From NCBI RefSeq assembly GCF_011398925.1, contig NZ_AP022842.1, positions 2,282,001 through 2,346,000 of the forward strand: 64,000 nucleotides of DNA. Reading direction: 5' to 3'. The notes beneath the pieces were generated by a model. That model worked only from the letters and a program-made list of their open reading frames with translations, was not told the origin of the DNA and ran no database searches. This stretch comes from Bacillus sp. KH172YL63. GTDB taxonomy: Bacteria; Bacillota; Bacilli; Bacillales; Bacillaceae_B. The translations under genes were made by a program, and so were the position numbers. This document shows, in pieces, positions 47,559 to 54,234 of this stretch (its first letter is position 1; every line of letters starts with the position of its first letter).

Positions 47559-47574
47559 CGTTGTGAATGGTTCA

Positions 47575-47680
47575 TTTTCGACAAAGAGATCATATATTTG
47601 AATAGAGGATCATATATCAGAATTCCCGCTCATAAACTAAATTTTCGGATCATAAAAATTGAAAACCGGCTCATAAGCGG
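47575..47680. repeat. Array 1 of 20-bp-spaced TCATA cores with TTTTCGACAA leader
   Basis: A TTTTCGACAA leader (47575-47584) is followed by five TCATA cores at 47590, 47610, 47630, 47650 and 47671 (spacings 20, 20, 20, 21). Cores are preceded by GA or GC/GGC and separated by A/T-rich fill. Same leader, spacing and segments as the array at 53009-53129. The period is not a multiple of three and there is no open frame. Lies in a gene-free stretch between two convergent genes. Confidence 0.9.
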
Positions 47681-49496: not shown

Positions 49497-50317
49497 TATC
49501 TTCCCTCCTTCTTCTTAAGGATGATATTGCTGCCGATCAGCGGAAGGACCACCCAAAGGACGGAAACGAGCACATATGCGGCTTTCCCTGCTACCGTCAG
49601 GAAAAACGCAGAGAAGTCATAATACACCGGACCAAGAACCGTTGCGTTTCCCGAATATAAAATATATCCTGTCCGTATCCATTCGACTGGATTGGTAAAT
49701 GTCAGGATGATGACCAGATTTTTCAACAATGTTCCTGACAGAAAAGAGCCTGCAGCCATGATGAAATATTCATAGATCAGTAAAAAGAATGCCCACACCC
49801 CAAGGGCGAGGGATAAGCTTTGAACCCGGCTATTAGATAAGCTTCCGATCAGAACCGAGAGTGCCGAGAAGACGCATACGGCAACAACTGACAGGGACAG
49901 CATCAGTACATCAATGGTACTCCCCCTGCTCACGCTGCTCACGATCAGCACGAGGCTGTATCCTACCGTCAGCATGATCAAAAATGAACTCACAAGGGCA
50001 ACGAATTTCCCCATTGTATACGTCCCTATTCGCATTGGATAGGTCCTTAACAATGAAAACCATCTTGACTCAATATCAGACGAAATCGACAATGCCCCTA
50101 TCGTCAACGTGAATAATGGCAATAAAAATAGCAGGACGTTTAAAAATGAAGCCGAAAACCGTGTGAACGAGGAAGTGACCGGCATGGCAAACATTTGTAC
50201 CAGCGTAATCGAGAGAAGTAATAGTGTCAGAAGGCTCCCGAATATGAACAGTGACTTCGTCCGCACCATTTTTTTCATTTCCGCTGTGATGAATGACGAT
50301 AATTTATTCATGGGCAT
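49496..50317 (-). CDS. nosY: ABC permease, NosY-like
   Basis: 273 aa, six hydrophobic segments in the ABC-2 fold with the SSDIESRWFSLLRTYPMRIG element equivalent to the NosY/ABC-2 SGEEE.G.l.lLlS.P loop. Start at ATG 50317 or 50311; both overlap the nosL 3' end. Partner of NosF. Assignment as NosY rests on the NosD and NosL neighbours. Confidence 0.78.
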   Translation of the reverse strand: MPMNKLSSFITAEMKKMVRTKSLFIFGSLLTLLLLSITLVQMFAMPVTSSFTRFSASFLNVLLFLLPLFTLTIGALSISSDIESRWFSLLRTYPMRIGTYTMGKFVALVSSFLIMLTVGYSLVLIVSSVSRGSTIDVLMLSLSVVAVCVFSALSVLIGSLSNSRVQSLSLALGVWAFFLLIYEYFIMAAGSFLSGTLLKNLVIILTFTNPVEWIRTGYILYSGNATVLGPVYYDFSAFFLTVAGKAAYVLVSVLWVVLPLIGSNIILKKKEGR

Positions 50318-50786
50318 GAACGCCCCATTCGTGCTCCGATAAGTCTTCCGGAGTCATCAATTTCCCTTTGCCTTCCTCTTTCATGAACGCTTCTGCACCA
50401 TTTTTCGTGCTGAATGCAAGGACGCCGTAAGACATTGGTGTCCAAAATTCCTGATCATACACAAAATAGGCTGTGTTTGAGTCGATCCATTTGTCCGTCT
50501 CGTATTCCTTCACATAGCTAGCCCCGACCGCATCCTCCTGTTGTTCGATCGCATATTGAACGAGGCACCCAATATCATCGAAAATGAGCTTGTCACCGTT
50601 TGCCAACACGGCCTGTGCGGCATAATCTTCGTGAACAATGCTCATATTGCATACAATGCACGTGTCCACCTCCGGATTGATGTCCCGGGGGCTCATGTCT
50701 TTTTTGCCACATCCTGCACCGATGATCCATATACATGCAATGATGCTTGTGAGGCTCATCCATTTGAGCCACTTAATTTTCTCCAT
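50304..50786 (-). CDS. nosL: NosL-like copper-binding lipoprotein (copy 2)
   Basis: 160 aa. Lipobox IIGAGC, then the copper motif CIVCNMSIVHEDYAAQ and the later DDIGCLVQY segment of the NosL family. GCAGGAGG precedes ATG 50786, which lies inside the 3' end of nosD (31-nt overlap). NosL delivers Cu(I) to apo-NosZ in denitrifiers; no NosZ is encoded here. Confidence 0.85.
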   Translation of the reverse strand: MEKIKWLKWMSLTSIIACIWIIGAGCGKKDMSPRDINPEVDTCIVCNMSIVHEDYAAQAVLANGDKLIFDDIGCLVQYAIEQQEDAVGASYVKEYETDKWIDSNTAYFVYDQEFWTPMSYGVLAFSTKNGAEAFMKEEGKGKLMTPEDLSEHEWGVHAHE

Positions 50787-52054
50787 ACAAACCAACCTCC
50801 TGCAAACCCTGCCGACCCGAGAATCAGCTGGAAGACATTCATCCCCCACTCGACGTTGCTCCCTGAACCTTGGAGCAACGGTTTTTCATCCCGTACGGCA
50901 TTCTTATCCTTCAATGAAAGCTTCTTTTCCATTTTCCCCAAAGTAACGACCGCCGGGGACTCGAAGAAATATTGATAAGCCTTCTGTTTGACCATCAATC
51001 TTCCGAAAGAATCGTTGGACTGGTAAAACGTATCGCCGAGACCGTCCCCGTCAACGTCCATTCCGCTATATTCATCCCAGTAATTCCTTTCCAGCACTGC
51101 ACCGATCCGGTCGGATGAAACCGACATGATGTTTCCGTATACTTCATTCCCAGCGAACTCATTCGATTGTGCATACTGGATGAACTGAAGCCCTGTTTGA
51201 TTCGAAGAAATCCTATTGCCTTTAATGGCAGAGTGGGCTACATTTTGCAGCGTCATGCCGACGCCATTGTGTGCCACCGTATTTTCTTCCACCTCAATGC
51301 TTCCCCCATTATAAAGAACCATCCCGGATCCGTTATAACCCGTTTGATGTTCCACTATATTACGTTTAATGCTTGTTCCATCAGACATCATGTGCATCAG
51401 GCCGGTAACATTTTGACTCAGATGATTTTTCACCAAAGCGGTTCCGTCCGAATACATCAGGTGAATTCCGTAACGTGAATGTGACACGAGGTTGCCAATC
51501 AATTGACTTTGATGATCCTCTTCCACGTAAATCCCATCCTGCACATTCCGGATCTCTGCACCTTCAACCTTGATTCTATTCGTTTTATAAAGCGTCACAC
51601 CATTTAATTTTTTTGAAAAATGTCCTTTCTTTCCTTCAATCGTAACGTCAGAAATTTCACTGTTTCCAACATTAAAAAGTTCGATTCCGGAATTGAAATG
51701 ACTGAGCTTTACGTCTCTCATCACCAAGTACTTACTGGCGTTTGCCTGGATTCCCACCGAATCCTTGTCGCGACTGGACAATTCTATATTCTCTATCGTA
51801 ATGTCACGGGTATGATCGATGGAAATGACCGGTTCGTTACTTGTACTTTCGATGATGACATTCCCTTTGCCAATCAGCGTAAGCGGCTTATCCAGCACAA
51901 TGTTTTCATGATAGGTACCTGATTCGAGATATACAGTCGAGCCTGGATCTGCTTCATCAATGATCGATTGAATGGATTTCTCTGCCATCATCACGCTCGG
52001 AAATAACGGGGAAAGGAGGCATAATACAGCCATGACGCCTAGCCATTTCTTCAT
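50756..52054 (-). CDS. nosD: NosD-like exported parallel beta-helix protein
   Basis: 432 aa. Signal peptide, then right-handed beta-helix repeats (SGIELFNVGNSEISD, NRIKVEGAEIRNVQDGIYVE, YGIHLMYSDGTALVKNHLSQ), a NosD C-terminal block (NYWDEYSGMDVDGDGLGDT) and a C-terminal helix (GMNVFQLILGSAGFAGGWFV) as in Firmicute NosD. Works outside the membrane with NosFY. Confidence 0.88.
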   Translation of the reverse strand: MKKWLGVMAVLCLLSPLFPSVMMAEKSIQSIIDEADPGSTVYLESGTYHENIVLDKPLTLIGKGNVIIESTSNEPVISIDHTRDITIENIELSSRDKDSVGIQANASKYLVMRDVKLSHFNSGIELFNVGNSEISDVTIEGKKGHFSKKLNGVTLYKTNRIKVEGAEIRNVQDGIYVEEDHQSQLIGNLVSHSRYGIHLMYSDGTALVKNHLSQNVTGLMHMMSDGTSIKRNIVEHQTGYNGSGMVLYNGGSIEVEENTVAHNGVGMTLQNVAHSAIKGNRISSNQTGLQFIQYAQSNEFAGNEVYGNIMSVSSDRIGAVLERNYWDEYSGMDVDGDGLGDTFYQSNDSFGRLMVKQKAYQYFFESPAVVTLGKMEKKLSLKDKNAVRDEKPLLQGSGSNVEWGMNVFQLILGSAGFAGGWFVWRKLSGSNG

Positions 52055-52073
52055 GCTATCACCTCCAAATCGG

Positions 52074-52106
52074 AAAAAGGGCTAAATAAGCAAATGCCTT
52101 TAGCCC
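52074..52106 (-). terminator. Terminator/attenuator between nosL copy 1 and nosD
   Basis: Minus strand GGGCTAAA, 12-nt loop, TTTAGCCC, five T. It lies inside the presumed operon and may lower nosD expression relative to the first nosL. Confidence 0.75.
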
Positions 52107-52113
52107 GGTTTTC

Positions 52114-52764
52114 TTATGAATGAGAGTGTTCACTGCTCTCTTCTTTGTCTTCATGCTTCATGCCGTCATCCTGATGGTCATGATTCATGTCCATGCTCTC
52201 ACCGTTTTTCATTTTCTCCATCTTTTTCATATGACGATGACTTGCTACTTCATCAATGTCTTCCAGGGATGAAAGACTTGCTTGATCGCTTCCCTGCTCC
52301 TCAATGAAGTGTTGTGCACCTTCGTCATCCTTAAAGAAAGCATAACCGTAGTTCATCGGCGTCTTGATCTCACCCTTCACAATCACGGCTTCGTCAAGCT
52401 TCACCCATTCATCTGTATCATAATCCCTTACATACTTATCAAGGGTTATCCCGTCTTTACGCTCCTGATTCAGCATGCAGCCGATATCATCAAAGAAATA
52501 ATTCTTTCCATCTTCTCCAATACCCTGTGCCGAAAATGCACCCATTTCTTGATCTTTCGGGTAGACTGTCATATTACAGTACTCACACACCGTATGTTCA
52601 TCGGGCTCAGCAAGTGCCACTTCCATTCCAGCTGTTTCATCACTATTCTCTGTTTGTTGTGATGCTTCTTCTTTCTTCTCTGTCTGTTTTTCATCCGTCG
52701 TCCCACAAGCAGCCATAGTCATAACCAACAGGCCGAGCAGAAGCGACAACCACATTTTTTTCAT
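52114..52764 (-). CDS. nosL: NosL-like lipoprotein with His/Met-rich tail (copy 1)
   Basis: 216 aa. Lipobox MTMAAC, acidic linker, NosL core with CEYCNMTVYPKDQE and DDIGCMLN, then a long tail rich in Met, His and Glu (HRHMKKMEKMKNGESMDMNH, later HDHQDDGMKHED) that could bind several copper ions. ATG 52764 after GGGAGAG. First gene of the cluster; much longer than copy 2. Confidence 0.85.
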   Translation of the reverse strand: MKKMWLSLLLGLLVMTMAACGTTDEKQTEKKEEASQQTENSDETAGMEVALAEPDEHTVCEYCNMTVYPKDQEMGAFSAQGIGEDGKNYFFDDIGCMLNQERKDGITLDKYVRDYDTDEWVKLDEAVIVKGEIKTPMNYGYAFFKDDEGAQHFIEEQGSDQASLSSLEDIDEVASHRHMKKMEKMKNGESMDMNHDHQDDGMKHEDKEESSEHSHS

Positions 52765-52907
52765 TCTAATCTCTCCCTTCACATAAAAAATAGCAGACAA
52801 TTGTGTTGAAAAAATGAAGGAATCTCGCTAAATATAAAATTCAAGAGAGATTTGGACCAGTTTTCAAAAAGGTGTCATATCAGGCTTACCCTTCCGCCCA
52901 TTTCCTT

Positions 52908-53005: not shown

Positions 53006-53008
53006 GAT

Positions 53009-53129
53009 TTTTCGACAACATGCTCATATATTGAAAAACAGGATCATATAAAAAAATTCCCGCTCATAAATTTTTAAATCGGCTCATATATTTCAGATCC
53101 AGCTCATAAGTTGTGGAAACCGGCTCATA
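53009..53129. repeat. Array 2 of 20-bp-spaced TCATA cores with TTTTCGACAA leader
   Basis: Leader TTTTCGACAA (53009-53018) and six TCATA cores at 53024, 53044, 53064, 53084, 53104 and 53125 (spacings 20, 20, 20, 20, 21). Leader-to-core distance (15 nt) is the same as in array 1. The second and third cores share AATTCCCGCTCATAAA with array 1. Lies between the divergent nosL copy 1 and NERD genes. Confidence 0.9.
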
Positions 53130-53265
53130 TATTGGTAGATTCCCCGTCCCGAGCAGATCCCTACCCAATTATAATTGTAAAATTTTCTATTTTCTTCCAA
53201 AAAGCAGGAGTTTTCTTAAAAACGGCGAACTATTTGATTAAATAACGAGCAAAAGGAGTGATTTT

Positions 53266-54234
53266 TTGATTGCAAAAGAAAGGGAAACCCCTCAGAAACT
53301 TGTAAAAACCGAGGCCCTCATAAGAAGACTTCAACCCTTGAACCATCCGAAAAGACCAATCATCGAGCAGGACTTGAAGAAAAGGAAAGCCGGGTTCAAT
53401 GGTGAAAAAGCAGTTGATTACCACCTCTCATTTCTGTCTGATAAGAAATATATGATATTCAATGACCTCAAGCTGCCAATGACCCCGGATTTCTTCCAGA
53501 TTGACACCCTCCTCTTAACCTCACATTATACGCTCCCGATCGAAGTGAAAAACATTTCCGGCACCCTCACAATCAATCCCGAATTCAATCAGTTCTCAAA
53601 AATCTATCAAGGGATAGAAACGGGCTATCCTGACCCGATTACCCAGGCAAGGCGGCAAAAGCTGTTTCTCCAGAGATGGTTTTATAATCAGAAGCTTCCC
53701 TGTCCTCCCATCGAATTCCTCGTCGTCTTCAGCAACCCGGCAACGATTTTGAAAATGGCAAAAGGGCATGCATTGATTCCGCCCTTCGACAAAATCATTC
53801 ATGCCCAGAACCTGGTGAATGAAATTAGCAAACTCAACCAAAAATACAGCCAGAAAGAACATGAACCCTACGACCTTAAGAAAATAAAGCGACTGCTGTT
53901 GACTCAGCATCAGGAAGACAATTCTTCCATTCTGCAAACCTATCAATTGAATGCTGCCGACATTCGTCGCGGGGTTCTGTGTGAAAGGTGCAATGAGGTG
54001 ATGATCAGGATGACAGGGTTTTGGCACTGTCCCTTCTGTCAACACGGTTCCAAAACAGCTCACCTCCAGGCGATTAAGGATTACTTCCTACTGATTAAGC
54101 CAACCATTACGAATCAGGAGCTAAGAGACTTCCTTCTCCTTCCTTCCCGTAAAACGGCAACCATCATCCTTCAATCCCTCCCCCTCACTCAAATAGGAAA
54201 TAGAAAAGGCGTTTATTATATACAATCACCTTGA
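53266..54234 (+). CDS. NERD-domain protein with zinc ribbon and C-terminal winged-helix-like region
   Basis: 322 aa starting at TTG six nt after AAAAGGAGTG. A nuclease-related NERD domain (about 45-160; FNGEKAVDYHLSFLSDKKYM, FFQIDTLLLTSHYTLPIEVK with the DxxxxT...EVK catalytic-type residues) is followed by a four-cysteine ribbon (LCERCNE ... WHCPFCQ) and a final region like a winged helix (TITNQELRDFLLLPSRKTAT). The likely role is nucleic-acid binding or cleavage. Its 3' end overlaps the convergent kinase gene by 19 nt. Confidence 0.83.
   Translation: MIAKERETPQKLVKTEALIRRLQPLNHPKRPIIEQDLKKRKAGFNGEKAVDYHLSFLSDKKYMIFNDLKLPMTPDFFQIDTLLLTSHYTLPIEVKNISGTLTINPEFNQFSKIYQGIETGYPDPITQARRQKLFLQRWFYNQKLPCPPIEFLVVFSNPATILKMAKGHALIPPFDKIIHAQNLVNEISKLNQKYSQKEHEPYDLKKIKRLLLTQHQEDNSSILQTYQLNAADIRRGVLCERCNEVMIRMTGFWHCPFCQHGSKTAHLQAIKDYFLLIKPTITNQELRDFLLLPSRKTATIILQSLPLTQIGNRKGVYYIQSP

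Follow-up and report, generated by a model that had tools for sequence, protein, structure and literature searches.

The window analysed here, a 64,000-nucleotide stretch corresponding to positions 2282001-2346000 of the single 4.25 Mb contig of Bacillus sp. KH172YL63, contains two arrays of tandem units, both chromosomal and intergenic and separated by 5.4 kb. The genus was taken to be Rossellomorea, since the three relatives found with the neighbouring gene are all R. aquimaris or R. vietnamensis. Copy 2 was read directly on the plus strand: its leader, GATTTTTCGACA (53006-53017), which recurs in the other class A elements of this genome, is followed by a class A array of six G(C/A)TCATAWAT units (53022-53133), with TCATA cores at 53024, 53044, 53064, 53084, 53104 and 53125 and spacings of 20, 20, 20, 20 and 21 bp. 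Copy 1 (47574-47677, plus strand, also read directly) is a solo class A element made up of a leader, with TTCGACA at 47577-47583, and a five-unit array with cores at 47590, 47610, 47630, 47650 and 47671 (spacings of 20, 20, 20 and 21 bp); it was located 3' of a TetR-like gene and the terminator-like hairpin of that gene. Both TTTTCGACAA and AATTCCCGCTCATAAA are common to the two arrays. These readings confirmed the original prediction of a second array with a common leader, 20/20/../21 spacing and one extra unit (six compared to five), as well as the final spacing of 21 bp in both copies. No inverted repeat pairs were found in either array, and no Rfam model matched in the window or at the arrays of 10 loci.

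Copy 2 lies, as had been claimed, between divergent genes, namely a minus-strand gene (52114-52800), for which nosL was the name given earlier, and a plus-strand NERD gene (53266-54234) that encodes 322 amino acids. The region from 50304 to 52800, which adjoins the array, is presumably akin to a nitrous-oxide reductase accessory cluster, with two NosL-like, one NosD-like and ABC transporter proteins. The NERD gene was identified as the probable partner of the copy 2 array from its Pfam match, alignment, a predicted model and the array pairing described below. Its product matched Pfam NERD (PF08378) with 69.8 bits, compared to a cut-off of 22.1 (E = 3.6e-19), and three relatives also scored above the curated cut-off. 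The predicted model (pLDDT 95.1) comprised a PD-(D/E)XK-like domain, a zinc ribbon and a winged helix; the nuclease domain has a putative restriction-like fold, and the nuclease-type residues were invariant in the NERD alignment. One phage NERD protein was matched in the viral structure library (E = 2e-9). A sequence search of solved structures revealed no relative of the whole protein, and weak matches to hemagglutinin and ribosomal zinc ribbons were discounted as chance or generic. The protein was matched in 36 of 36 Rossellomorea genomes, with 1-13 matches in each and five in this genome, and in 39 of the 49 genomes that were picked from other families. These paralogs were many, fast-changing and decaying.

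Dispersed arrays and their classes

The pattern TCATAWN{14,15}TCATAW matched this genome 154 times, compared to six matches for the reversed control. Twenty-seven elements consisting of a TTCGACA leader and an array were read in 20 fetched regions and the window, and more leader matches were present at 3733495, 3789724 and 4154643, outside the regions read. The elements read spanned 185 kb to 3671 kb of the 4252 kb, with one leader match at 4155 kb. In a blind scan for 7-mers that recur every 19-21 bp in five or more copies, with no more than one mismatch allowed, 32 arrays were detected in 253 kb of this genome, most of which comprised stretches chosen because they hold arrays; none was detected in block-shuffled sequence. 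The original prediction had named an absence of further copies as the outcome that would count against it. Instead there were 27 elements here and related arrays in other species, the window pair is not a local duplication, and the idea of a dispersed repeat family, which keeps its leader and geometry while the fill drifts, was borne out.

The TCATA positions were 95-100% conserved in class A units, a figure partly built in by the chaining criteria (a first core, then four matching bases out of five in every later core), and several fill positions were near random. The unit number, which had been put forward for comparison, was rather constant and mostly six: among arrays in which four or more units could be chained, six were counted in 29 of 47 for class A and in 38 of 47 for class B. 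Up to 39 units were nevertheless present beside NERD genes of other genera. These long NERD-linked arrays, of 18-39 units with 20-21 bp spacing, were observed at L509, L510, L525, L528 and L533. The suggestion of selection on spacing also held up, in that the spacing looks constrained; 20-21 bp is kept across classes with other cores.

The flanks of class A copies were mostly unrelated. Two distant pairs of solo copies, 2146265/2166252 and 3200299/3203705, aligned from GATTTTTCGACA to approximately 100 bp past the array; in both pairs the DNA upstream of the leader was unrelated, so the left limit of the similarity is the leader. This common left end and tail fits a copied unit that has the leader as its left end. 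Whole elements (the array and approximately 200 bp) also recurred in tandem, once every 280-400 bp or so, at L161, L162 and L271 and, in this genome, at 449266-449721, 3200295-3200740 and 3311868-3312302. Upstream of many class A arrays (e.g. 3200140-3200295) the stretch that separates the leader from terminator-like hairpins was strikingly G/T-rich on the array strand, and a TPP riboswitch (L062:2003-2101) was located near the array pair at 449 kb.

When the gene context of 54 class A arrays was recorded, 24 were between converging genes, four were between diverging genes and one was at an edge; among tandem gene pairs, 17 had the leader at a gene 3' end and eight had the reverse arrangement. 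As raw counts without a genome-wide background, the converging and diverging positions lean towards the clustering at gene ends that had been suggested. The ackA neighbourhood was read in 30 of the 36 species. Class A arrays were present there in G000, G021, G007, G035 and G005, class B arrays, in the opposite orientation, in G018, G032, G008, G025, G030 and G028, and both classes in G007 and G035; in G022 a class A leader is retained together with a class B array, and the remaining species had neither. This pattern indicates that array presence turns over while some positions persist. No empty insertion site with clean ends was found beside ackA in the 30 species read.

Further cores, among them GACGCA, GGTTGATA, GGCTGGATT, GCACAAGTTT and TTCGGTAATAAA, were recovered by the blind scan from Rossellomorea genomes and another family, with no matches in block-shuffled controls; these classes have 20-21 bp spacing like class A, but other cores. 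This genome also holds GACGCATAA (class D1), TGACGCAAT and TTTCGCCGTTA (class L) arrays. Matches to the class B leader were obtained in 12 of 36 genomes, the match in G027 having no array after it, and class C was observed in G035 (L161), G029 and G007. Class D1 doublets numbered 52 in this genome, 16 in G021, seven in G007, six in G003 and 1-3 in four others, with none in 28 genomes and none in the controls. Class-specific patterns miss other classes, and absences from them concern the searched class only.

The leaders of several other classes were unlike TTCGACA and often resembled TTTGTAAA, TTGGTAA or ATGTAAAA (L296/L305 in G007 and G029, L292 in G014, L229/L297 in G007). The sequence TGTCGAA, the consensus of the Spo0A box, was considered for the class A leader; this reading was dropped because the leaders of other classes are without it. 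A general tail motif after class B arrays also was rejected, since 9-mers of CAGCTAAAACAGACAATCT were present in 11 of 54 at most. The block CCCAGCTAAAACAGACAATCTAAAG was observed roughly 60 bp past the array in some class B elements at different loci (e.g. L162:3008-3450, L173, L175 and L207). In the hybrid array at L264 (G035) a class C unit came first and was followed by class B-like GCACGATTA/GCATGATTA units, which suggests recombination between classes.

Pairing and co-variation of NERD genes and arrays

Arrays were located in front of a NERD gene not only in the window but also in R. aquimaris (three class C arrays, L161), R. vietnamensis (three class B arrays, L162) and G008 (five class B arrays, L271). 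NERD-linked arrays were counted if they had at least four units at 19-21 bp spacing. An array was present upstream in 26 of the 30 best-per-genome NERD loci, compared to none in shuffles, and in 34 of 40 further Rossellomorea paralogs and 20 of 30 loci from other families, a cumulative 80 of 100. Six of the 20 loci without an upstream array had one directly downstream (L523, L526, L528, L531, L533 and L535). The last 20 loci, which were chosen to include fragments, had 12 arrays upstream and four downstream; the four with no array (L543, L545, L548 and L554) were NERD fragments or broken copies. Overall, in a non-random sample of 120 loci drawn from part of the matches, the array was 60-700 bp upstream at 92 and just downstream at another 10, giving 102 of 120 with an array on either side. 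The remaining 18 showed no array; at least five of these were fragments or broken genes and several were full-length. The background, determined from open reading frames of at least 250 amino acids in stretches not picked for arrays, was 3 of 294 and 2 of 146 with an array in this upstream range of 60-700 bp. A co-occurring DNA-binding protein, which the original prediction had proposed to look for, is present in the form of the adjoining NERD protein, a putative binder. The repeat-family reading stood but was incomplete, since the NERD gene had been noted merely as a landmark and is the probable partner.

It was stated beforehand that the other NERD paralogs of this genome should carry the classes D1, TGACGCAAT and L, which had first been seen as solo arrays. 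Classes D1 and L were found upstream of the NERD genes at 242342 and 951525; the genes at 4219626 and 232696 have GTCGATAATA and TTACGCAAT arrays, the latter corresponding only approximately to the predicted TGACGCAAT. The classes of solo and NERD-linked arrays thus match in this genome. Across genomes, class B leaders were present in 5 of 5 genomes with an intact NERD-B gene compared to 7 of 31 others (p = 0.002). The corresponding values for class A leaders (3 of 4 compared to 6 of 32, p = 0.041) and class D1 (2 of 2 compared to 6 of 34, p = 0.044) were weak, and both motifs were derived from this genome. Core integrity was 113 of 132 with an intact NERD-A gene and 49 of 72 without, although G028 (0.33) and G008 (0.94) ran contrary to this difference. 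Intact D1-type NERD genes were present in G000 and G007. Among the loci read in G021 there was no intact D1-type gene, the nearest gene being broken and having a GACGCAAT array; that G021 nevertheless holds D1 arrays counts against tight coupling. Among the matches listed, solo arrays without an intact cognate NERD gene were seen for class A in G004, G008, G021 and G007 (broken gene) and for class D1 in G021 and G003.

Protein and array also co-varied. For 78 NERD-array pairs, protein distance correlated with unit dissimilarity (Mantel r = 0.467, equalled in 0 of 500 permutations), a value uncorrected for kinship. NERD loci could be grouped across species by similar downstream flanks, and these groups carry drifting classes: one group of 15 includes D1, GACGCAATTA, GGCTTATAAA and TTGAGTCGTTTA, and another runs from GTCGATAATA to GTTGATAATA and GTCGGTAATA. 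When overall distance was removed, the alignment columns that tracked the unit best were 300, 113 and 299 (ranks 1-3 of 295 scored), with a top score of 0.333 compared to 0.236 for the highest in 20 permutations. Columns 299-300 fall within helix 295-304, the recognition helix of the winged helix in the predicted model, and the rank-2 column, residue 113, is in the nuclease domain. Of 309 eleven-residue windows, 2 scored at least as highly as 294-304, with 294-304 itself counted; the winged helix as a whole showed no clear excess among the 30 top-ranking columns (8 of its 54 columns). Lys300 was associated with G[AG]C in 22 of 26 pairs compared to 2 of 51, and Arg300 with [TC]CG in 22 of 27 compared to 8 of 50, for motifs that were chosen post hoc and counts uncorrected for kinship. 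In other genera the values, for the same post hoc motifs, were 6 of 10 compared to 1 of 9 for Lys300 (p = 0.057) and 4 of 4 compared to 1 of 15 for Arg300. The association of Arg300 with plain CG was weaker (22 of 27 compared to 27 of 50).

Proposed explanation and its alternatives

These results point to the array as the probable binding platform of the adjoining cognate NERD protein, arrays of the same class having been dispersed as solo copies in a somewhat REP/RAYT-like manner. Direct binding of a NERD protein to its own array class is very probable, given strong indirect evidence. A protein of this subfamily would keep an array of its own sequence class, usually just upstream of its gene, and its winged-helix recognition helix would read the core of the unit of approximately 20 bp. 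Tandem sites two helical turns apart could line up several protomers on one face of the DNA, and these would load unit by unit, leader first. The class A leader TTCGACA keeps the phase of the units, aligning with their A-rich second half, and so is a candidate for the strongest site. At the edge of the array, DNA might be processed by the nuclease domain, and this could initiate copying to a new location; the likeliest origin of the solo arrays would be low-rate, NERD-nuclease-dependent copying that starts at the leader, dispersing same-class arrays in intergenic DNA, often after gene ends. We infer the head-to-tail assembly and the cleavage by NERD, as well as any host benefit. That NERD proteins drive the dispersal is a guess from the copied unit and the REP/RAYT parallel, to which we give a little less than an even chance. 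Somewhat more tentatively, NERD proteins and arrays may form a self-spreading recognition system of the Bacillales, in which nuclease and tandem target co-evolve new specificities, so that each genome would have several independent address classes, and residues 299-300 would relate to the core through a code that can be read in part.

The main rival is a regulatory or insulating role, in which NERD would chiefly be a DNA-binding regulator whose upstream array controls its own gene, and arrays at gene ends would block read-through or shape the chromosome, with site-wise selection and no movement by NERD. The location of the NERD-linked array just upstream of the gene is consistent with such a role, as are the solo arrays that mostly adjoin gene 3' ends, some of which, for instance those of class A and of class F (GGTTGATA) beside ackA, are at matching positions in several species. 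We nevertheless consider it unlikely, since the invariant nuclease-type residues suggest an enzyme, species differ in whether a given site has an array and in the class of that array, and the left end and tail common to two copy pairs look like copying. Defence or addiction is improbable: the NERD nuclease would target foreign DNA or cells losing NERD, and the arrays would mark self or restrain the enzyme. The predicted restriction-like fold and the many fast-changing, decaying paralogs would suit this role, but no PADLOC family matched the window protein, only sub-threshold PglW matches were obtained for two relatives, NERD loci often have a downstream flank that is common between species, and no array relatives were found in plasmids or phages.

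Neutral minisatellites, or segmental duplication without function, would accommodate the occasional tandem duplication of whole elements. This explanation is very improbable, however, because classes with different cores have a common spacing and in many cases six units, because array class follows a gene and because class A cores are highly conserved, even though that conservation is partly built in by the chaining criterion. Still harder to credit is the capture in the chromosome of iterons or decoys, that is, sites of plasmid or phage replication initiators. The arrays have iteron-like geometry, but no plasmid or phage match covered 80% of the array, the only matches being short and weak, viral pattern matches were without the array architecture, and the arrays pair with NERD genes and are chromosomal and intergenic. 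Pattern matches in viral contigs, 31 for class A (all scanned) and 93 for class B (80 scanned), were rejected as arrays; those inspected look like generic tandem or coding repeats. The TTCGACA sequence occurred near a viral pattern match only in one coding stretch (L368).

Comparison with known systems

No description of the NERD-array pairing was found in the literature covered, which was mainly open-access. According to PMC9040797, NERD was first studied experimentally in bacteria in that work, where conserved NERD residues were shown to matter in SmdA, a cell-division membrane protein; the accessible part of the paper gives no DNA target. The NERD domain is widespread, and hardly any work has addressed its molecular role in bacteria (PMC9040797); one subfamily now has a concrete candidate partner, a DNA array. 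An array sequence class can be predicted for each NERD paralog, the pairing offers an account of a set of intergenic repeats with regular spacing in the Bacillales, and tens of natural protein-target pairs are provided from which a recognition code could be learned.

In the accessible part of PMC10910872, the legend of a figure places NERD among the putative CRISPR auxiliary genes, with no NERD array named. Arrays like those described here might have caused this association. The NERD loci are like the non-CRISPR regularly interspersed repeat systems of that paper, in which regular arrays lie beside predicted nucleic-acid enzymes; unlike in CRISPR arrays, the whole period is 20-21 bp, which is too short for a repeat and a spacer. 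The cooperative multimers proposed for NERD on direct repeats resemble those of BldC, which binds head-to-tail to direct repeats of varying length (PMC5859096). Unlike NERD, BldC is MerR-like and without a nuclease domain, and no test carried out here shows relatedness.

A parallel in organisation is that with REP/REPIN sequences and RAYT transposases, where the class of the REP repeats is linked to the resident enzyme (PMC8049555). In both systems short extragenic repeats are dispersed in the genome and their class follows a resident gene. The RAYT gene is inherited in place; for NERD genes, downstream flanks group loci across species. In contrast to the RAYT tyrosine (Y1 HUH) transposases, the partner of the arrays is a NERD protein whose fold is PD-(D/E)XK-like, the place of palindromic REPs is taken by direct arrays in which no inverted repeats were found, and several NERD paralogs coexist. 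The NERD proteins and their arrays would add to REP/RAYT a second way in which a repeat population is maintained in a bacterial genome by a resident enzyme.
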